Shown here in pieces: positions 1 to 13,761 of a stretch of DNA of 64,000 bases. Origin of the DNA: Emcibacter nanhaiensis (GTDB lineage: Bacteria; Pseudomonadota; Alphaproteobacteria; Sphingomonadales; Emcibacteraceae); NCBI RefSeq assembly GCF_006385175.1, contig NZ_VFIY01000015.1, positions 188,501 through 252,500 of the forward strand, read 5' to 3'. The translations under genes were made by a program, and so were the position numbers. Every line of letters starts with the position of its first letter. Position 1 is the first letter of the stretch. Below the pieces are notes generated by a model. It saw only the letters and a list, made by a program, of their open reading frames with translations. It searched no databases and had not been told where the DNA came from.

Positions 1-1
1 A

Positions 2-667
2 GCCGCTCGAGGGTTTCAGGAAAAACAGGGTGGCGTCGGCGATGTCATCCACATTGCCGAGGCGCTGCACCGGAATGCTGGCGGCCAGGGCGCGCGCCTG
101 GTCGCTGTCTTCCGCCATCACGTCGGTGAACATGTCGGTCACGATCGGGCCGGGGGCGATGGCGTTCACGGTGATGCCGTGCCTGCCGAGCTCCATGGCC
201 CAGGTGCGGGTCATGCTGATGATGGCGGCTTTGGTGCCGGCATAGCTGGTGCGGGTCGGCAGGCCGACCACGGCCCGGGACGACATATTGACGATGCGGC
301 CGAAGCCGGCGTCCTTCATGGCCGGCAGGAAGGCCTGGGTCAGGGTAATGGCGGCGCCGAGATGCAGGTTGGTGAGATAGTCCAGGTCCTCCAGCTTCAC
401 CTCCTCGATCAGCGACGGGCGGATCACGCCGGCGTTATTGACCAGTGACGTGACCTGATAGTCTTTGGCCAGTTCTTCGGCCACTTCGCGGGTGGCGTCC
501 GGGTCGGCCAGGTCCACTTCGCGGAAGCTGAGATTGTCGTGGCTATAGTCGGGCTTGCCACGGGCCAGGCTGACGACATCATAGCCGGCGTCGAGCAGGT
601 GGCGGCAGATGGCGGCGCCGATGCCGGCGCTGCCGCCGGTGACAACGGCTGCGGGACGTTCACTCAT
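2..667 (-). CDS. SDR-family NAD(P)-dependent oxidoreductase (3' end cut by window edge)
   Basis: About 222 codons are visible and the frame is open to the window edge, so roughly the last 25-30 residues are missing. It is a classical short-chain dehydrogenase: the N-terminus carries the TGGSAGIG dinucleotide-binding glycine motif, NNAG follows in the middle, and the active site reads SYAGTK (YxxxK) preceded by the catalytic Ser of the MSSRA stretch. The start ATG overlaps the stop of the upstream DUF35 gene by 8 bases, which argues for translational coupling. As the last visible gene of the ligase/thiolase-like/DUF35 operon, it probably oxidises or reduces a hydroxyacyl/ketoacyl-CoA intermediate or the carbonyl product of its neighbours. 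The substrate is inferred from context only; the family assignment is firm. Confidence 0.9.
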   Translation of the reverse strand, partial: MSERPAAVVTGGSAGIGAAICRHLLDAGYDVVSLARGKPDYSHDNLSFREVDLADPDATREVAEELAKDYQVTSLVNNAGVIRPSLIEEVKLEDLDYLTNLHLGAAITLTQAFLPAMKDAGFGRIVNMSSRAVVGLPTRTSYAGTKAAIISMTRTWAMELGRHGITVNAIAPGPIVTDMFTDVMAEDSDQARALAASIPVQRLGNVDDIADATLFFLKPSSG

Positions 668-1001
668 TTGTTTCTTCCTTCCTGTGGGCCCAGTAAACAG
701 TGCGGCCCTTGTAATCCTGTTCGGCCGAAAGGCTGACTTCCGTGCCGGGTTGCGTATGTTCCTCGCCGAGGTTGACCATCATGACGGTGCCGTCCTCGAG
801 CCGGACCGAGCCGATCGGCCAGGGCAGGCGCTCCTGAAAGAATTCCTCGAGGCTGTGATAGAGCGGTACGCTGGCGAGCAGTTCGCCTTCGGCCCGGATC
901 TCCAGCCATTCCAGCTGGTCGGACAGGCATTCGCCGCAGATTTCGCGGACCGGATACTGGGTCTTGCCGCAACTGGTGCAGACGGGAAGCTTGATGGTCA
1001 T
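660..1001 (-). CDS. Zn-ribbon / OB-fold (DUF35) protein, partner of the thiolase-like protein
   Basis: A 113-residue protein with an N-terminal rubredoxin-like zinc ribbon (CTSCG at residues 9-13 and CGECL about 15 residues later) followed by a small OB-fold domain with the VRLEDG strand. I chose the ATG at 1001 because the protein then begins just before the zinc ribbon, as in the family, and because it overlaps the stop of the thiolase-like gene (ATGA). DUF35 proteins form complexes with thiolase-like enzymes such as the Ltp2 aldolases of steroid side-chain breakdown and help bind the CoA substrate. The overlaps on both sides indicate a stoichiometric complex with the product of 998-2194. 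It is unlikely to have its own catalytic activity. Confidence 0.88.
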   Translation of the reverse strand: MTIKLPVCTSCGKTQYPVREICGECLSDQLEWLEIRAEGELLASVPLYHSLEEFFQERLPWPIGSVRLEDGTVMMVNLGEEHTQPGTEVSLSAEQDYKGRTVYWAHRKEETNE

Positions 1002-2194
1002 TGGACGCCTCCCGTTTCCAGCACGGCGGCGGTGGCGCACAGCCCGCGGTCGTAGTTGATCATGCCATAACCGCTGACAGTGGCGCGTCGCGCGTTCGCG
1101 ACCTGTTGGCCGAGGGCGCTGCCGGTCAGTTGGCGCAGCGCCTCGACCACGCCCATGTAGCCGGCGGCGGAGCCGGCCTGGCCGCAGGACAGCTGACCGC
1201 CGGAACTGTTATGCACCAGCCCGCCGCCGTCCCAGGTCAGCGGGTTGACCCGGGTGAATTCGGCGGCCTTGCCCTTGGCGCAGAATCCCAAGTCCTCCAT
1301 CTGCATCATGGAGATGACCGGATAGTCGTCATAGGTATACAAGAGGTCCATATCTTTTGGCCCCACTCCGGCGCGCTCATACATGGCGGGGGCGAACGTC
1401 TTCCAGCCGGCGCGGTATTGCACGGCATCCTCGTCGCTATAGGCGTTGTGCAGTTCGTCGGCGGCGCGGATTTCCACATACGGCAGCTTCAGGCTTTTCG
1501 CCCGATCCACCGACATGACCAGAAAGGCCTCGGCCCCGGCACAGGGCATGACGCAGTCGAACATATGCAGCGGCCCGGCAATTGGCCGGGCGTCAAGATA
1601 ATCGTCGAGGCTCAGCGGCTTTTTGATCAGGGCATGCTCATAGGCCTGCGCATTATGGCGCTGGGCCAGCGCGATACGGGCGAAATCCTCGCGCCTGGCG
1701 CCAAACTTGTCCATATAGTGTTGGGTGATCAGCGAGAAGGCGCCGTTGGGACCGGGCGCCCCGTAGGGATAGGCCGCGGCGGCAGAAAAAGTGCTGAAGT
1801 TTTCCACCAGTTCCCTGAAGCCTTCTTTTTTGTTGGTGTCGGCGCCGATGCAGGCGATCACCTCCGCGTCTCCGCTTTGCACCGCCCGGGCGGCCCGGCG
1901 CAGCGCCACCACACCGGAGGCGCCGCCGAGCGGGATCTGTTCGATCCAGCGCGGGGTCAGGCTGAAATACTGGGTCAGGGTAATGACGCTATCCGGGGCT
2001 AGGGTAAAGCTGGAGACGGCGAGACCGTCGATGTCCGCCTTTTCGATCCCGGCGCTGTTGACCAGTTCCGCCAGCGCCCGCCCCACATACCATTGCGCGC
2101 CATGCTCGCTGAAGCGGCTGTAAGGCACCGTGACCGGCACCACAAGGGCGACGCTGTCATAGGAGGCCGGTATGTTCCGCGGTTTGCTGGTCAT
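998..2194 (-). CDS. thiolase-like protein (SCP-x/Ltp2-type; probable lyase or aldolase rather than thiolase)
   Basis: A 398-residue thiolase-superfamily protein. Where degradative thiolases have their nucleophilic Cys (CxSG), this protein reads GGASG, so the acyl-accepting Cys seems absent. The C-terminal CxG motif is replaced by GYGMINYDRG. The middle retains HNSSGGQLSCGQAG in place of the GHP histidine loop. Such Cys-less proteins paired with a DUF35 subunit include the Ltp2/ChsH2 retro-aldolases that release acetyl- or propionyl-CoA from steroid side chains. The gene is 9 bases downstream of an acyl-CoA ligase and overlaps the DUF35 gene. Inference: it cleaves a hydroxyacyl-CoA by a retro-aldol reaction. 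An ordinary SCP-x thiolase role cannot be excluded without a structure-based alignment. Confidence 0.82.
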   Translation of the reverse strand: MTSKPRNIPASYDSVALVVPVTVPYSRFSEHGAQWYVGRALAELVNSAGIEKADIDGLAVSSFTLAPDSVITLTQYFSLTPRWIEQIPLGGASGVVALRRAARAVQSGDAEVIACIGADTNKKEGFRELVENFSTFSAAAAYPYGAPGPNGAFSLITQHYMDKFGARREDFARIALAQRHNAQAYEHALIKKPLSLDDYLDARPIAGPLHMFDCVMPCAGAEAFLVMSVDRAKSLKLPYVEIRAADELHNAYSDEDAVQYRAGWKTFAPAMYERAGVGPKDMDLLYTYDDYPVISMMQMEDLGFCAKGKAAEFTRVNPLTWDGGGLVHNSSGGQLSCGQAGSAAGYMGVVEALRQLTGSALGQQVANARRATVSGYGMINYDRGLCATAAVLETGGVQ

Positions 2195-2203
2195 ATCCGT
2201 CCC

Positions 2204-3826
2204 CTAGTCCTTTTTTGGTCGTTTCTTCAGGTGACGAAGGTCAATGGCCTGGCCTTCTTCCACCAGTTTAGCACAAATTGACTTCACATCGCCGCGTTTG
2301 AGTTTTTTTGAGGCGGTCAGCGGCAACTCGTCGACAAAGGCGATATAGCCGGGGGTCTTGTAATAGGTGAGCTGCTCCATGGACCGGTCAAAAATGTCCC
2401 GGGCCAGTGCCTCGCCGGCGGTTTTGCCGGCTTTGGCCACGATCAGCGCCATCACTTCGTCGCCGCGCAGTTCGTCCGGGACCGGGGCCACGGCAACCGT
2501 GTCCACGGCCGGGTCCAGCAGCAGCACATTTTCCACCTCGAGGGCGGAAATATTCTCGCCGCTGCGGCGCACCACATTCTTCTTGCGGTCGACGAAGTAG
2601 AGCGACTTGTCGGCGCCTTCGCGGACGATATCGCCGGTGTGCAGCCAATTGTCTTCCCAGGCTTCTTCGGTGGCTTCGCTGTTCTGGTAGTAATGGTCGA
2701 AAAAACCGTAGCGCGGGTTATCCCCGGTGGCCCGGACCAGAAGCTCGCCGGGCAGGCCCGGGTCCACGTCGTTGCCTTCGTCGTCCACCAGCCGGTATTC
2801 CACCTCGTCGGTGGCGCGGCCGAAACAGCATTCGCCCACATGGCGCGGTTCATGGCTGGCGATGACGCAGCCGCCGCAACCGGATTCGGTCATGGCCCAG
2901 GCCTCGATCAGCGGGAAGCCGAACCGTTCCTCGAAGGCGGCATGGTGTTTGGGGTTGACGCCGGCGCCAAAGCCGAACCGCACCTTGTGGGCCTTGTCCT
3001 TGTCGCCCGGCTCCATATTGAGCAGGATCGCCGGCAATACGCCCAGGTAATGGATGATGGTGGCGCCACTGTCGCGCACGCTGTCCCACCAGCTTTTGGG
3101 ATGGAAGCGGTCGAGCTGGATGATACAGCCGCCGACGCCCATCATGCCCATGGTGGAGCAGGCCAACGCATTCATATGCACCAGCGGCAAGGGGGTCAAC
3201 AGCCGGTCCTCTCCCGGGTGCAGCTCGCAGTAACCGCCCACATTGCGGTACCAGTCGCCAAAGGCGATGAAATATTCATTGCTGAGCACGCAGCCCTTGG
3301 GATTGCCGGTGCTGCCGGAGGTGAACAGCATGGCGCATTCGGTGGCGGTATCAGGAATATGATCGAGCGCCGGACGCGTTGCCGGGGGCAACCCTTCCAG
3401 GGTGGCGGAACAAAGCGGTGGGTGTTCGGATTCTTGCTCAAGGGCGATGGCTTCCTCGACCAGCGTCATTTTTTCCGGCAGGCTGACCACCAGGTCGGCA
3501 TCACCGTGGTAGATAATATAGTGCAGGTCCTGGGGACTGGCTTCCGCATTCAGGGGAATGATGCCGACGCCGAGCGCATTGAGGGCGAGCCAGTGGAAGA
3601 AAAAGTCGGCCCGATTCTCCAGCAGGATGGCGACCCGGTGCCCCACGCCATAGCCGGCCGCGCCATAGGCGGCCCGGCGCTGTTCCACTTCGCGGGAGGC
3701 CTCGGCGTAGGTGTAGTCTATCGCGCTGTCGCTATAGCTTTTCGCCGCCGACAGGGGGATATGGACGAAGGGGCGGTCGCCATAGGCCTCAACCGCTTTG
3801 GAAAAAACGTCAAAAACTGTTTTCAT
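2204..3826 (-). CDS. AMP-forming acyl-CoA synthetase (ANL superfamily)
   Basis: This 540-residue ligase activates a carboxylic acid as the acyl-adenylate and then the CoA thioester. The P-loop FTSGSTGNPKG lies at residues 168-178, an A5-type AMTESG motif in the middle, the A7 LHTGDI motif near residue 400, and the A10 lysine in TASKKLK (Lys508). The Lys-rich C-terminal tail is typical of crotonobetaine/carnitine- or steroid-acid-type ligases. It is the promoter-proximal gene of a four-gene operon with the thiolase-like, DUF35 and SDR genes and is divergent from a MarR regulator 95 bases away. It probably supplies the CoA thioester used by the rest of the operon. The true substrate (branched or cyclic acid, fatty acid) cannot be read from the sequence. 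Confidence 0.92.
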   Translation of the reverse strand: MKTVFDVFSKAVEAYGDRPFVHIPLSAAKSYSDSAIDYTYAEASREVEQRRAAYGAAGYGVGHRVAILLENRADFFFHWLALNALGVGIIPLNAEASPQDLHYIIYHGDADLVVSLPEKMTLVEEAIALEQESEHPPLCSATLEGLPPATRPALDHIPDTATECAMLFTSGSTGNPKGCVLSNEYFIAFGDWYRNVGGYCELHPGEDRLLTPLPLVHMNALACSTMGMMGVGGCIIQLDRFHPKSWWDSVRDSGATIIHYLGVLPAILLNMEPGDKDKAHKVRFGFGAGVNPKHHAAFEERFGFPLIEAWAMTESGCGGCVIASHEPRHVGECCFGRATDEVEYRLVDDEGNDVDPGLPGELLVRATGDNPRYGFFDHYYQNSEATEEAWEDNWLHTGDIVREGADKSLYFVDRKKNVVRRSGENISALEVENVLLLDPAVDTVAVAPVPDELRGDEVMALIVAKAGKTAGEALARDIFDRSMEQLTYYKTPGYIAFVDELPLTASKKLKRGDVKSICAKLVEEGQAIDLRHLKKRPKKD

Positions 3827-3921: not shown

Positions 3922-4362
3922 GTGACAAAAAGCGCCGACAACAGTTTCCTGGATAATTACCTGTCCCACCTGCTGGCCCGGGCGAGTCACCTGGTTTCGG
4001 AGGATTTTACACCAGTTCTCAAAAAAGCGGGAATCGACCGTGGCCGCTGGCGTATTCTGGCGGCGCTCAGTGACGTGGGGGAGATGACCATCGGCACACT
4101 GGCCAAGGCGGTCCTGATGAAGCAGCCGACCCTGACCAAGATCCTCGACCGCATGGAGGGGGAGGACCTGGTCAAGCGCCATAATGCGCCCAATGACCGC
4201 CGTTCCATCCTGGTCCGCATCACCGACCGCGGGCGCGACATGATCTCCGACCTGCTGGTCAAGTCCAAGGAGCATGAGGTACAAATTCTGCGAAGCTACA
4301 GCACAGAGGAGGAAGAGGTCCTCAAGCGTGTGCTGCGCACCCTGATTGAGCGGATGGAATAG
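3922..4362 (+). CDS. MarR-family transcriptional regulator
   Basis: A 146-residue winged-helix protein with the usual MarR layout: a dimerisation helix (FLDNYLSHLLARASHLV), a recognition helix in the MKQPTLTKILDRME stretch, and the wing with NDRRSILVRITDRG near residues 92-105. The start is a GTG at 3922 with a weak AAGG ribosome site about 9 bases upstream. It is divergent from the acyl-CoA ligase operon. MarR proteins next to CoA ligases, such as those controlling aromatic acid and fatty-acid operons, often respond to the acyl-CoA product, so autoregulation plus control of the 3826-to-1 operon is the likely role. The ligand is unknown. Confidence 0.9.
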   Translation: MTKSADNSFLDNYLSHLLARASHLVSEDFTPVLKKAGIDRGRWRILAALSDVGEMTIGTLAKAVLMKQPTLTKILDRMEGEDLVKRHNAPNDRRSILVRITDRGRDMISDLLVKSKEHEVQILRSYSTEEEEVLKRVLRTLIERME

Positions 4363-8416: not shown

Positions 8417-9088
8417 ATGGCATTAAACAGGGTACTGATCGCGGACGATCACCCTCTGTTCAGGGAAGCGTTGAGCGATATTGTAAGCTCTGTCTATGAA
8501 GAAGACGTGGACTGTCTTGAAGTCTGCAACGTTGCGGAAACGCTGGCGGCGACCGACAGCGGCGAAAACTTCGACATGATTTTGCTTGATCTGTTGCTGC
8601 CCGGCGCCGAGGGATTTTCCTGCCTGATCAGCCTGCGCAACAAGCTGCCCTCGACTCCGATTGTCATTGTCTCTTCCACCGATCATGATGAAACGGTGCG
8701 CGAAAGCTTTTCCTATGGCGCCATGGGCTATCTGCCCAAATCCTCCTCGCGCGAGGTGATGCGCAATGCGCTCCGGCTGGTGCGCAGCGGCAACAGCTAT
8801 ATCCCGTCCCAGGCCCTGGGCGGTGGCGGGGAGCGCTCGCCCGAACAGATGCCGGTGACCGGTGGCGGTGCCGCGGCCATCGATGCGGAAAAGGCCAGCC
8901 TGACCCCGCGCCAGATGGCGGTGCTGGAGCTGTTGGCCGAAGGCAAGCCCAACAAGGTCATCGCCTACGAACTGGATATCTCGGAAATTACCGTCAAGGC
9001 CCATGTCTCGGCGATCCTGCGCAAGCTGCAGGTCAATAACCGCCTGCAGGCGGTTATTGCCGCCAAGAACCTTATCGCCCAGTCCTGA
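8417..9088 (+). CDS. LuxR/NarL-family response regulator (CrbR/ErdR/ErbR-like)
   Basis: A 223-residue regulator: receiver domain at residues 4-125 with the acidic pair DD (10-11), phospho-acceptor Asp58 in ILLDLL and Lys in GYLPKSS. After a Gly-rich linker comes a LuxR-type HTH (SLTPRQMAVLELLAEGKPNK...EITVKAHVSAILRK) at about 155-220. The length, DDHPLFREAL opening and domain order match regulators of the acetate/ethanol-responsive group (CrbR, ErdR, ErbR). The gene follows two acyl-CoA synthetases on the same strand and converges on a hybrid histidine kinase whose stop is 8 bases away. The pairing with that kinase is by proximity. Its paralogue at 61658-62329 has the same length and the same Asp position. 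Confidence 0.9.
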   Translation: MALNRVLIADDHPLFREALSDIVSSVYEEDVDCLEVCNVAETLAATDSGENFDMILLDLLLPGAEGFSCLISLRNKLPSTPIVIVSSTDHDETVRESFSYGAMGYLPKSSSREVMRNALRLVRSGNSYIPSQALGGGGERSPEQMPVTGGGAAAIDAEKASLTPRQMAVLELLAEGKPNKVIAYELDISEITVKAHVSAILRKLQVNNRLQAVIAAKNLIAQS

Positions 9089-9096
9089 GTTTAAGA

Positions 9097-10506
9097 TCAG
9101 TCCTGCAGTCCGGCCAGATTCTCACTCAGGGAATGATGGATCAGGCTCGACAGCCGGGCCGGCTTGACCGGTTTATAGAGCAGGGGAATGTCTTTACCGG
9201 CGATCCGGTCCGCCAGTTCCTTGTCCCGGTCACTGGTGATGATCAGTACCGGCAGCAGGGCTTCAAATTCCGCCTGTATCTCGGCGGCAGCATCCAGGCC
9301 GTTTACGCCGCCGTCCAGATGGTAGTCGGCGATGATCATGGCCGGTTCCAGATCGTTGCTGATCAGGTTGACGAGGCAGGCCTCGGCAGAGGCTCCGGCC
9401 ACGGTGCGGCAGCCCCAGCTTCTGAGCAGCGCTTCCATCCCTTCCAGCACCTGGGGATCATTGTCGGTGACCACGATTACCCGCTCGCCCATCAGGTCCG
9501 GCAGGGTCGAGACGGCCGGTCGGCTGGTCTGGCCGGTTGCGACCTCTGCGGGTTCTCCCTTGTGCACGGTAACGGCAAACCTTGACCCTTTGCCCTCCAC
9601 CGAGGCCACATGAACCGGCAGGCCCAGCAGCCGGGTGATCCGGTCGACGATGGACAGGCCGAGGCCGATGCCGCGGGTGCCGATGCTGCGGTCTTCATGG
9701 ACCTGGGTGAATTCCTCGAAGATCGCTTCCAGCTTGTCCTCGCGAATGCCGATGCCGGTGTCGTGCACGCAGATCATGATGCCGTCATCGCTGTGTCGGC
9801 AACCGACCAGTATCCGTCCCCGCTTGGTGTAGCGGACCGCATTGCTGAGGAAGTTGCGGATGATGGTTTCCAGCAATCGTTCGTCGGAATAGATGACGGC
9901 GGAACAGGGCACCATGCGCACATCCAGGCCCCGGGTCTCCCCGGTCTTGATATATTCCGGCACAATCCGGTCCAAAAGGTCCTGGACCCGGAAATGGGTG
10001 AAGTTGGGTTTGATGCCGCCCGCGTCGAGCTGGGAAATATTCAGCAGGACACTGAGCAGATCATCCAGCGCGTCCAGCGAGGTGCTGATGCGCTGGACGG
10101 TCTCCTCGTTTCCATCGTCTGTTTCAGCCTCCAGCGTTTCCAGGAACAGCCGGGCTGCATTGAGCGGCTGGCGCAAATCATGGCTGGCGGTGGCCAGGAA
10201 TTTGGTTTTACTGAGGTTGGCGTCTTCCGCCTGCTGCTTGGCGATGCGCAGGGCGTCCTCCACCTTTTCCCTGACGTCCAGTTCCTCCCGCAGCCGGGCA
10301 TTAAGGATTTTCAGTTCCCGGGTCCTGAGCTCGACGGTTTTTTCCAGGTTGATGGCGGTCTGGAACAGGGAGAAACTGTCCCGTTGCTGGTCCATGTCCC
10401 GTTCCACGCGCTCCATCAGCACCTGGACGGTCTTGTTGAGCCGGGCGTTTTCCATCACCAAGCGTTTGATTTCCTCGTCACTCAAGCGGCTTGAACGTTC
10501 AGTCAC
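9097..10506 (-). CDS. hybrid histidine kinase with receiver domain (NahK-like)
   Basis: A 469-residue cytoplasmic kinase with no membrane segment. An N-terminal coiled coil (about 8-100) leads into HisKA with phospho-acceptor His109 in ASHDLRQPLNA. HATPase_c boxes follow: N box NFLSNAVRYT, G1 HDTGIGI, G2 GIGLGLSIV. A C-terminal receiver has Asp394 (IIADYHLD) and Lys in LLYKPVKP. There is no sensor domain of its own, so sensing is expected from the partner FIST protein, whose gene overlaps this start by 8 bases. The architecture and neighbour match the NosP-NahK pair of pseudomonads, where NosP controls phosphotransfer. The receiver suggests a phosphorelay or a reversible sink. Confidence 0.9.
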   Translation of the reverse strand: MTERSSRLSDEEIKRLVMENARLNKTVQVLMERVERDMDQQRDSFSLFQTAINLEKTVELRTRELKILNARLREELDVREKVEDALRIAKQQAEDANLSKTKFLATASHDLRQPLNAARLFLETLEAETDDGNEETVQRISTSLDALDDLLSVLLNISQLDAGGIKPNFTHFRVQDLLDRIVPEYIKTGETRGLDVRMVPCSAVIYSDERLLETIIRNFLSNAVRYTKRGRILVGCRHSDDGIMICVHDTGIGIREDKLEAIFEEFTQVHEDRSIGTRGIGLGLSIVDRITRLLGLPVHVASVEGKGSRFAVTVHKGEPAEVATGQTSRPAVSTLPDLMGERVIVVTDNDPQVLEGMEALLRSWGCRTVAGASAEACLVNLISNDLEPAMIIADYHLDGGVNGLDAAAEIQAEFEALLPVLIITSDRDKELADRIAGKDIPLLYKPVKPARLSSLIHHSLSENLAGLQD

Positions 10507-11668
10507 GGACTTGCGCCTTTCTGCCGATAGCGATGCAGGAGAAGGAGTTGTTCATATGCAGCGTGTTGAACTGTTCACCAAAGGAGGCGAAACCGATCAC
10601 ATTGTTGGCCGCATAAATTTGCGACATTTCGTCCAGGATGCCCTGGATCTGGAAATTCATTTTCCGGGCTGCACAGTCGCAGCCGATCACCAGGGACAGG
10701 GGGCCGATTTCCGACGAGATATCACTGAAAAGTGTTTCGAGGTTTAACTGCGGGTCGTCGGGGCGGGCGATGCTGCAGACTACACCCTTGTCGATGGCGC
10801 AGGCAAACCTGATGCTGTGTTTTTCATGGTCGATTCCCATCACGCCGCGGGAAAAATAGGTGCCGCCGACCTTGACCATCACGGGATGTTTGCTGGCGAT
10901 GACGATATCCAGATCCTGTTCTTCGACTCCGCACAGCCGGGCATATTCCTGGGACGCGGGCAGCCCGTTGATTTCCAGCACCTCACGGGTGATTGGATCG
11001 GCCTCGGTGATAACCGCCTTGGCGTCACTGGCCACATAATGATGGGTGTAGGACACCTGGAACGGCAGGTCGGTGTGAACCAGCATTACCACGGCACTGT
11101 CTGTGCGGAACTTTCCTTCATGGAAAATCTGTGTTTGTTTCAGCTTGAAGTCATCGGCGGTGGACCCACCGATCATACTGATTTCCCCAAGTTCACTGCC
11201 CAGCGAAGCGGTGACGCGCTCTTCGGCGTTGCTCAGGCCGTCGATCAGCATAAAGGCAAAGCTGTTGGAGCCGCTGACATTGTCTACCGCCCGGCGAAGC
11301 TCATGTTTCAGGCTGCGGCCGAATTCGATGCCGTCCTGGATGTTGAATTTGCTGATCCTGTCGTAGCGTTTGCTGACGCAGGTGAAATGGGTGCGGCTGA
11401 GCGCGGCCCCGGTGATGGAACCCGCATGATAGCCTTCGGGAGTGATTTCGCCGGCAGTGGTGCAGCCGATCAGCGGGATATCCCCGAACTGCCGGTTGAG
11501 CTCTTTTTCCAGCACGGCAGTGTCATATTCCGGGGAGCAGAAAAAGATCACGGCTTCGGGCCGTTCCTCAGCAATGCACAGGCCATCATAAAATTCCCTG
11601 ACCGCTGTCCGCTCATCAGCGGACAGGGAAAAGGCCCTTTTAATTTCTGCGTCACAGGGATCAGTCAT
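10499..11668 (-). CDS. FIST-domain ligand sensor (NosP-like)
   Basis: A 389-residue cytoplasmic protein made of FIST_N (about 33-225; landmarks IFFCSPEYD, IGCTTAGEITPEGY, SMIGGSTADDF) and FIST_C (about 230-370; landmarks GVMGIDHEKHSIRFAC, GCDCAARK, GFASFGEQFNTLHMNNSF). FIST domains bind small ligands. In NosP proteins they bind haem and nitric oxide and modulate a partner kinase encoded next door. The 8-base overlap with the downstream kinase supports such a partnership. Whether this protein binds haem cannot be judged from sequence alone; amino acids or other small molecules are alternatives. Confidence 0.9.
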   Translation of the reverse strand: MTDPCDAEIKRAFSLSADERTAVREFYDGLCIAEERPEAVIFFCSPEYDTAVLEKELNRQFGDIPLIGCTTAGEITPEGYHAGSITGAALSRTHFTCVSKRYDRISKFNIQDGIEFGRSLKHELRRAVDNVSGSNSFAFMLIDGLSNAEERVTASLGSELGEISMIGGSTADDFKLKQTQIFHEGKFRTDSAVVMLVHTDLPFQVSYTHHYVASDAKAVITEADPITREVLEINGLPASQEYARLCGVEEQDLDIVIASKHPVMVKVGGTYFSRGVMGIDHEKHSIRFACAIDKGVVCSIARPDDPQLNLETLFSDISSEIGPLSLVIGCDCAARKMNFQIQGILDEMSQIYAANNVIGFASFGEQFNTLHMNNSFSCIAIGRKAQVRD

Positions 11669-11810: not shown

Positions 11811-13319
11811 TCAGGCCATGATGCAGACTGACTTTGTCTGGGTATAGAGTTCGAGAACATCCTTGCCCAGCTCGCGTCCGTAACCGGACTGTTTGAAGCC
11901 GCCAAATGGCATGGCGACATCAAGAATATTGTGGCAGTTAACCCAGACGGTGCCGGCCTTGATCTTGGGGACGAAGCGCATGATATTGCCCACATCCCGG
12001 GTCCACAGGCTGGCGCCGAGGCCGTAAATGCTGTCATTGGCCAGTCTGGTAATTTCGCTCATGTCGGAATAGCGCTGAACACAGAGCACCGGGCCGAAAA
12101 TTTCTTCCTGGACCACTTTCATGTCCTGGGTGGTATTGCCGAGAATGGTCGGTTCCACGAAATATCCGCTGTCGCCGCGGCGTTTGCCGCCGGTGATCAC
12201 TTCGGCGCCTTCCTCGCGGCCGATATCGATATAGCCCATCACCCGCTGGAACTGGGTTTCAGAGACCAGCGGATTGACCATATTGTTGGCATCGAGGCCC
12301 GGTCCGATGGACATGGAGGAGACGGCTTCCGCCACGCCGTTGATGACCTCATCATAGAGGTTGTCCGGCACATAAAGGCGCGAACCGGCGCAGCAGACCT
12401 GGCCCTGGTTGAACATGATGGCGCTGGCAGCGCCGGGGATGGCGACGCTCAGGTCTGCATCGGGCAGGATGATGGCCGGGGATTTGCCGCCCAGTTCCAT
12501 GGAGACTTTTTTCATGCTGTCGGCGGCTTCGCGGGCAATGATCTTGCCCACTTCGGTGGAGCCGGTGAAGGCGATTTTATCCACTTCCGGATGGGCGGTC
12601 AGCGCCGCGCCGGCAGTATGGCCGTATCCCGGAACGATGTTCACAACCCCGTCCGGGAAGCCGGCTTCGCAGATCAGTTCACCCAGACGCAGGGCGGTCA
12701 GCGGCGTTTCCTCGGCCGGTTTCAGGACGATGGTGTTGCCGCAGGCCAGCGCCGGGGCCATTTTCCAGGCGCACATCAGCAGCGGGAAGTTCCAGGGAAT
12801 GATCTGGCCGACTACGCCGACCGGCTCGCGCAGGGTATAGCCGAAAAATTGGGCTTCGGGCGTTTTCGGGGTGCTCAGCGGCAGCACGTCACCGGCAATT
12901 TTGCTGGGCCAGCCGGCCATATAGCGGAAGGTTTCGATGGCCACATTGATATCGACCATGCGGGCGATGGCCTTGTTCTTGCCGTTGTCGATCGATTCCA
13001 GTTCCGCCAGTTCGTCGGCATTTTCCTCAATCAGGTCGGCCAGGCGATGGATCAGGCGTTCCCGGGCGCTGGGAGTCATATCCCGCCAGGCGTCGTCTTC
13101 AAAGGCGCGGCGGGCGGCGAGCACGGCCTGGTTGATATCTTCCTTGTCGCCTTCGCAGATGTCGGTAATGACCTTGCCGGTGGCAGGGTCGATGGTGGTG
13201 AAAGTCTTGCCGGAAACGGCGGATACCCATTTGCCGTCAATCAGCATCTGCTTTGTGCCGGAGATGAATTTTCCGGCTTTTTCTCCCAGTGCAGATTTGC
13301 TGTCGGTTACTGCGTCCAT
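11811..13319 (-). CDS. aldehyde dehydrogenase, phenylacetaldehyde dehydrogenase (FeaB)-like
   Basis: A 502-residue NAD(P)-dependent aldehyde dehydrogenase with WNFPL (176-180), general base Glu275 in MELGGKS and catalytic Cys309 in GQVCCAGS. RYMAGWPSKIAG, NPLVS and the C-terminal TKSVC resemble E. coli FeaB as I recall it. I chose the ATG at 13319 because GGAGAG lies 4-9 bases upstream and the length is then standard; an upstream frame extension to 13385 has no ribosome site. It is divergent from the TonB receptor and about 4 kb from the aromatic amine dehydrogenase operon. Oxidation of the arylacetaldehyde released by that enzyme is the natural role, inferred from similarity and location. 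It has its own terminator. Confidence 0.9.
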   Translation of the reverse strand: MDAVTDSKSALGEKAGKFISGTKQMLIDGKWVSAVSGKTFTTIDPATGKVITDICEGDKEDINQAVLAARRAFEDDAWRDMTPSARERLIHRLADLIEENADELAELESIDNGKNKAIARMVDINVAIETFRYMAGWPSKIAGDVLPLSTPKTPEAQFFGYTLREPVGVVGQIIPWNFPLLMCAWKMAPALACGNTIVLKPAEETPLTALRLGELICEAGFPDGVVNIVPGYGHTAGAALTAHPEVDKIAFTGSTEVGKIIAREAADSMKKVSMELGGKSPAIILPDADLSVAIPGAASAIMFNQGQVCCAGSRLYVPDNLYDEVINGVAEAVSSMSIGPGLDANNMVNPLVSETQFQRVMGYIDIGREEGAEVITGGKRRGDSGYFVEPTILGNTTQDMKVVQEEIFGPVLCVQRYSDMSEITRLANDSIYGLGASLWTRDVGNIMRFVPKIKAGTVWVNCHNILDVAMPFGGFKQSGYGRELGKDVLELYTQTKSVCIMA

Positions 13320-13761
13320 TTGTCTCTCCATTCCATATTTTGTGGCCATTTTTCTGGATTTTACATCCTGCAGTCCGCCAGTCATTGAACAGGCATCGCG
13401 CTTTCGGGCCGCCGGGTAAAATTGTCAGCCAGGATTATCCCATGTCCGGGGAAGTCAGAAAACTAGACCTTGGGATCACGGCCTGACTTGCATGAGCTAT
13501 TGAAGTTGTTCCTAACATCTTGTAATATAGGGAAAACTTTATAAGCGACGGCGGCAGGAACAGGGTCTGATACTATAGTATTAATCCCTGTCTTTTTTTT
13601 GATCCCTTTGTCTACTGGTGAAAAACGGCCTGCAGTCGCTATAATCGGGACGTGAGACTATGGTCTCCGTATATAAGTCCATTGATGGACGGGATGAAGA
13701 AATACCTTGAGGGAGGATATTTCTTTATTATCCATCCCACAACGACCAAGGGAAGAGACAA
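13320..13761. promoter_or_regulatory. 442-bp divergent regulatory gap with two inverted repeats
   Basis: No plausible gene lies between the ALDH and TonB receptor starts. Two close inverted repeats stand out: GAGAC/GTCTC with a 4-base spacer at 13654-13667, and GTCCAT/ATGGAC with a 2-base spacer at 13677-13690. A short TACTATAGTA palindrome lies near 13570-13580. The clustering about 75-105 bases before the receptor start suggests operator sites, perhaps for the TetR protein encoded at 16268. A GGGAAGAG ribosome site precedes the receptor ATG. Confidence 0.45.

Follow-up and report, generated by a model that had tools for sequence, protein, structure and literature searches.

Aldolases of the thiolase fold that work together with a DUF35 protein include the bile-acid aldolase Sal-Shy (PDB 9MYR, PMC12329534) and the steroid aldolase Ltp2-ChsH2 (PDB 6OK1). 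In both, the role of a tyrosine as catalytic base has been proven by mutagenesis (PMC12329534). This tyrosine belongs to the motif YDCY in Sal, which also holds the catalytic Cys304, replaceable by neither His nor Ser, and to the motif YDHF in Ltp2, which uses Tyr344 as a second catalytic tyrosine. The Sal partner Shy contains a Cys3His1 zinc finger and is fused to a hydratase, and the substrate is a steroid. Pairs of a Cys-less thiolase-like protein and a DUF35-type protein are already known outside steroid degradation, namely IpfD/IpfE of Rhizorhabdus wittichii MPO218 (plasmid pIBU218, PMC9195938). Here a Rieske oxygenase, a CoA ligase and this pair remove the acyl chain of ibuprofen from the ring, the products being propionyl-CoA and a catechol. 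The same plasmid also encodes a second, Ltp2-like lipid-transfer protein with the motif YDHF and its own OB-fold gene (L131:938-2502).

To our knowledge, no enzyme has been assigned to the removal of the acetyl side chain of auxin en route to isatin since work on Bradyrhizobium in 1995. The iad locus for the catabolism of auxin (indole-3-acetic acid, IAA) is described for Variovorax paradoxus CL14, Bradyrhizobium and Ruegeria pomeroyi (PMC9613470, PMC12633357), and cultures of R. pomeroyi break down IAA (PMC9613470). In the accessible text of a 2025 preprint (PMC12633357), IadG is assigned by annotation as a ketothiolase that removes the acetyl group thiolytically after the action of IadF, with IadH as dehydrogenase (reductive removal) and C8H7NO2 as product. 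The same text reports the formula of dioxindole-3-acetic acid (DOAA, C10H9NO4) as accumulating without iadF, iadG, iadH or iadI, that of dioxindole (C8H7NO2) and not that of isatin as accumulating without iadI, and those of isatinate (C8H7NO3) and aminobenzaldehyde (C7H7NO) downstream.

The window analysed here is a stretch of 64,000 nucleotides from Emcibacter nanhaiensis (GCF_006385175.1, contig NZ_VFIY01000015.1, positions 188,501 to 252,500 of the forward strand; G000:C15:188501-252500). Its left end holds an operon with the gene order iadF (ligase), iadG (thiolase-like), DUF35, iadJ (SDR), iadD (alpha subunit) and iadE (beta subunit), which extends beyond the left end of the window as far as position -1900 or so in window numbering. 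The features are the following:

1 to 667, minus strand: iadJ homologue, SDR dehydrogenase truncated at the end of the window, the whole gene being L006:4939-5667
660 to 1001, minus strand: stand-alone DUF35 protein of 113 aa, equivalent to the N-terminal half of IadH and predicted partner of IadG, with the Pfam domains zf-ChsH2 and OB_ChsH2_C
927 to 980, minus strand: C4 zinc finger of the DUF35 protein, Cys-x2-Cys-x10-Cys-x2-Cys, assigned from sequence with the motif definitions of PMC12329534
998 to 2194, minus strand: iadG homologue (P0001), Cys-less thiolase-fold protein of 398 aa with the Pfam domain Thiolase_C_1, predicted DOAA-CoA retro-aldolase
1178 to 1180, minus strand: Gln339, at the site of the GHP-loop histidine
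1322 to 1333, minus strand: YDDY motif (residues 288-291), with Tyr288 as predicted general base and Asp290 as predicted proton donor
1922 to 1927, minus strand: Gly90-Gly91, at the site of the nucleophilic cysteine of thiolases
2204 to 3826, minus strand: iadF homologue, AMP-forming acyl-CoA ligase, predicted DOAA-CoA ligase
3922 to 4362, plus strand: iadR-like MarR regulator gene, divergent from the operon, assigned from matches to solved structures
L006:3611-4924, left of the window: iadD homologue, Rieske oxygenase alpha subunit
L006:3127-3636, left of the window: iadE homologue, Rieske oxygenase beta subunit, start not fixed

The initial annotation had described a thiolase with altered nucleophile, histidine and C-terminal Cys motifs, overlapping DUF35 and SDR genes and a neighbouring acyl-CoA ligase gene, all of which are present. 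The iadG stop and the DUF35 start share an ATGA at 998-1001, and the end of the DUF35 gene overlaps the beginning of the SDR gene by 8 nt (660-667). Its advice to look further left was fruitful as well: the SDR gene is completed there and followed by the genes for the alpha and beta subunits of a Rieske oxygenase. The YDDY motif and the divergent MarR gene are, like this left part of the operon, additions to that description. A search with 6-base seeds between iadF and the MarR gene detected no palindromic operator. Further to the right, the window encodes the nitric-oxide sensor NosP, a NahK-like hybrid kinase and a LuxR-type response regulator (8417-11668), as well as an aldehyde dehydrogenase closest to the phenylacetaldehyde dehydrogenase StyD, though below the curated cut-off (11811-13385).

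The Rieske oxygenase genes left of the window identify the operon as one of the iad type. The best solved structures for the alpha subunit are two IadD entries, 7yls and 9o71, with E values of about 1e-144 (best match Variovorax IadD, 2e-144), the next family in this search being biphenyl dioxygenase (1e-54). All 14 IadD residues published as metal ligands (7) or as non-metal residues of the IAA pocket (7; PMC10374108) are identical in the aligned alpha subunit. Compared with the R. pomeroyi cassette, identities amount to 51% for IadF, 52% for IadG, 51% for IadJ, 45% for IadD and 35% for IadE; IadE and the DUF35 protein thus share only 34-35% with their Ruegeria counterparts (34% for the DUF35 half of IadH, which reaches 41% in Sulfitobacter). 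The iadJ product is the best IadJ match in the whole genome, and TGxxxGIG and YxxxK are intact in 68 of 68 aligned IadJs. For the MarR protein, the best solved structures are those of the Variovorax iad MarR (7kki/7kfo) and of a Ruegeria protein (3cdh). It keeps four of seven published IAA contacts (Tyr, Ser, Trp and Arg) and two of the three carboxylate contacts. A homologue of iadI (60%) lies 14 kb left of the operon on the same contig. Taken together, the matches of IadD and MarR, the six-gene match to R. pomeroyi and the IadI homologue argue strongly, at sequence level, for an iad-type operon with a rearranged gene order, so that E. nanhaiensis itself may degrade IAA.

The locus shares iadD, iadE, iadF, iadG, iadJ, the DUF35 half of iadH and the iadR-like MarR gene with the described iad loci. 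It differs from them in the order F-G-DUF35-J-D-E, in its unfused and short DUF35 protein, in the detached iadI and in the absence of iadC from the locus. The SDR half of IadH was not found at the Emcibacter locus either. The best match to the iadC reductase in the genome is weak (37%, within a 790-aa frame on another contig). Genes for a rubredoxin and a rubredoxin reductase accompany iad operons without iadC in other species (L060, L038-L040, L096) and are fused in one of them (L060:5866-7230); this pair might supply IadDE with electrons in place of IadC in such loci. For the reductase of these relatives, the Emcibacter genome gave weak matches only and no close copy. A Variovorax plasmid (L013) carries an iadC-D-E-like set without iadG.

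A steroid side chain as substrate was rejected because the Rieske oxygenase encoded in the operon belongs to the IadD family. The set of genes had at first pointed to an ibuprofen (ipf) operon, which was rejected on the motif of IpfD (YDAF) and its place in the tree. It might still be that IadG is a retro-aldolase and the operon of this lineage acts on another indole- or aryl-acetate or an arylpropionate instead of IAA. The identity of only 44-48% between this IadD and other IadDs, the missing iadC and the analogous set IpfABDEF degrading ibuprofen would fit this idea. We nevertheless regard it as unlikely in view of the fully kept IAA-pocket residues, the MarR protein nearest to IAA-binding MarRs, the isatin hydrolase homologue in the genome, which is expected for an oxindole product, and the YDAF motif of IpfD, which lies far from IadG.

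In P0001, the nucleophile loop reads PLGGASG (88-94), the GHP loop SCGQAGSA and the C-terminal CxG motif VSGYGM. Ordinary thiolases in the same alignment, including the paralogues L002 and L004 of this genome, show AC[AT][SG]G, GHP and HDAF-type motifs. IadG lacks the three hallmarks of a functional thiolase or SCP2-thiolase (nucleophilic Cys, GHP histidine and HD[AC]F), having GG, GQA and YDDY in their place. All 101 IadG homologues, which come from alpha-, beta- and gammaproteobacteria, have Gly90-Gly91 and YDDY, and 100 of them have Gln339, so the missing cysteine is no sequencing accident. Judging by the alignment, no other cysteine is likely to serve as nucleophile: proven aldolases have cysteines equivalent to Cys214 and Cys305, and a cysteine equivalent to Cys218 occurs in an ordinary thiolase beside the nucleophile of that enzyme. 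The IadGs compared, excluding that of V. paradoxus CL14, share 51-60% identity with the Emcibacter protein apart from the Ruegeria value given above.

The tyrosine of YDDY occupies the alignment position of the catalytic base in both Ltp2 and Sal. With Sal, IadG has in common the closest solved fold, the GGAS loop without the thiolase cysteine, the tyrosine base, the glutamine at the GHP position and a DUF35 partner; with Ltp2 it shares the fold, the DUF35 partner, the tyrosine base and the type of substrate, a tertiary beta-hydroxyacyl-CoA. However, Asp290 stands at the position of the catalytic cysteine of Sal, no tyrosine aligns with Tyr344 of Ltp2, and the zinc finger of the Emcibacter DUF35 protein is of the C4 type as in ChsH2, in contrast to that of Shy. 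IpfD has a tyrosine near the GHP position and is distant in the tree. The initial annotation had asked for a catalytic Tyr and His; the tyrosine is there, whereas the histidine is replaced by aspartate. As judged from the tyrosine in YDX[YF], the lack of a nucleophilic cysteine and the adjacent DUF35 gene, IadG would work like the DUF35-dependent aldolases of the thiolase fold.

The predicted structure of IadG (pLDDT 85, pTM 0.88) agrees with this. Foldseek placed Sal and Ltp2 on top, the best solved folds were Sal (9myr), 4u4e and Ltp2 (6ok1), and VIA-align ranked Sal first (Z 47.2, rmsd 3.0 over 372 residues). Ordinary thiolases have this fold as well, with somewhat lower VIA-align scores, and the fold alone therefore does not decide between a retro-aldolase and a thiolase. 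In the tree, the IadGs including the Emcibacter protein form one clade with a support of 100/100, separate from the Ltp2 branch. Its nearest neighbour is a YDDY protein from an Ochrobactrum plasmid (L012), followed by a YDDF group and next by Sal; more remote are Ltp2 and IpfD, the latter on a long branch. The YDDF group comprises further Cys-less thiolase-like proteins with GQ[AP]G (L125, L126 and L128). The Ochrobactrum protein is encoded with an OB-fold protein (L012:8920-10499) near AtuA-family, CoA-transferase and ABC transporter genes; a Rieske oxygenase gene is absent, and the protein is probably an aldolase for another substrate.

We therefore consider it likely that DOAA-CoA is split by IadG and the DUF35 protein via retro-aldol cleavage into isatin and acetyl-CoA within this iad-type operon. 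IadF would form the CoA thioester of DOAA. In the complex of IadG with the bound DUF35 protein, Tyr288 would take the proton of the tertiary C3 hydroxyl group and the C3-CH2 bond would break; Asp290, perhaps with help of Gln339, would then return a proton to the acetyl-CoA enolate, yielding isatin and acetyl-CoA. IadI would hydrolyse isatin to isatinate. For Asp as proton donor there is no precedent among characterised relatives, and this role, like the substrate, is a prediction. If the next enzyme acts on isatin, the preceding step should release isatin. DOAA-CoA is a beta-hydroxyacyl-CoA with a tertiary alcohol and its retro-aldol cleavage needs no redox chemistry; the published metabolite formulas are compatible with such a route without an added redox step. 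The weakest joint of the model is the accumulation of C8H7NO2 instead of isatin without iadI, as other enzymes would then have to reduce isatin in a side reaction.

Fold, motif, partner gene and context thus lend good support to a retro-aldolase complex comparable to Ltp2-ChsH2 outside steroid clusters, as proposed initially, the activity itself being predicted. The suggested shortening of a branched or cyclic acyl side chain holds in kind, as the predicted reaction shortens an acyl chain attached to a ring. A new substrate is the less likely reading: the operon matches iad operons for auxin, and the predicted substrate is the CoA thioester of a known intermediate. In the parts of the literature accessible to us, we found neither a report on IadG activity nor a retro-aldol reading of this step.

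The published role of IadG as a ketothiolase has the thiolase fold in its favour, besides the annotation and the C8H7NO2 product of the preprint. We consider it quite improbable, for the nucleophilic cysteine and the GHP histidine are absent from the homologues, and C3 of DOAA bears a hydroxyl group and three carbons, so no beta-ketone can form there and thiolysis is chemically unlikely. The dehydrogenase belonging to this scheme is in doubt, too. In most species IadH, annotated as alcohol dehydrogenase, is a DUF35 protein fused to an SDR-like domain. None of 58 aligned rows (one of them gapped at these positions) has both the tyrosine and the lysine required for catalysis by this domain, and the TGxxxGxG motif is broken. 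DUF35 directly follows iadG in 98 of 100 loci, the contig ending there in the two exceptions, and the fused SDR half was not found in 41 of these 98 loci, a few of which are cut at the contig or locus end. Loci without it belong to the Emcibacter lineage, to Halieaceae and relatives, and to Alcaligenes. In the tree, the Alcaligenes protein falls within a group of fused relatives; the locus still carries the remaining genes, and its DUF35 and iadJ genes lie too close together for an SDR piece to fit between them. Alcaligenes has thus lost the domain but retained the operon. On the simplest view, DUF35 does the work of IadH; judging by its motifs, the SDR domain is presumably inactive.

Such a probable pseudo-enzyme domain within the same cassette might suggest that IadG, too, is an inactive scaffold and that another enzyme carries out the cleavage. 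The strict conservation of YDDY and Gln339 across diverse proteobacteria makes this highly improbable, as does the need for iadG in anthranilate formation in Variovorax, stated in the accessible text of the preprint (PMC12633357).

Isatin as the product of IadG is supported by the neighbouring gene iadI. The gene following iadG-iadH in Roseibium aggregatum encodes IadI, called a "cyclase", and its product matches isatin hydrolase A (5nna/5nnb) over the full length with few changes. Labrenzia aggregata is an older name of this species. Isatin hydrolase A of L. aggregata was crystallised with isatinate and assayed (PMC6117287). The Emcibacter IadI likewise has isatin hydrolase A as best match (E 6e-103). 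Its gene is accompanied left of the window (L005:5511-16382, C15) by genes for a MarR protein, an enoyl-CoA hydratase, two acyl-CoA dehydrogenases, an iorA/iorB-like oxidoreductase, another MarR protein and an old-yellow-enzyme protein. IorAB homologues occur near many iad loci and could convert isatinate to 2-aminobenzoyl-CoA.

On the whole, it appears reasonably likely that IadG forms a clade of its own among thiolase-fold retro-aldolases and applies a Tyr-Asp pair (YDDY) to the non-steroid substrate DOAA-CoA, releasing isatin, that IadH is a DUF35 partner with a dead SDR domain and no dehydrogenase, and that IadI is an isatin hydrolase. The Emcibacter locus is real and mostly explained as a diverged member of a known operon, the central enzyme of which is probably misassigned in the literature. 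The current assignment of a ketothiolase and a dehydrogenase, made by annotation, conflicts with the sequences. The interest of the locus lies in a testable correction and not in a new system, with a model that names the enzyme, its partner, the substrate, the products and the residues. An accurate account of its steps is also important for work in which root bacteria are being equipped with the iad pathway. If our reading is true, the published step of side-chain removal in bacterial auxin degradation would be corrected and the crystallised Labrenzia isatin hydrolase A would be tied to its operon. YDDY would then be a third catalytic signature beside YDHF and YDCY, extending the DUF35-dependent aldolases beyond steroids and ibuprofen.
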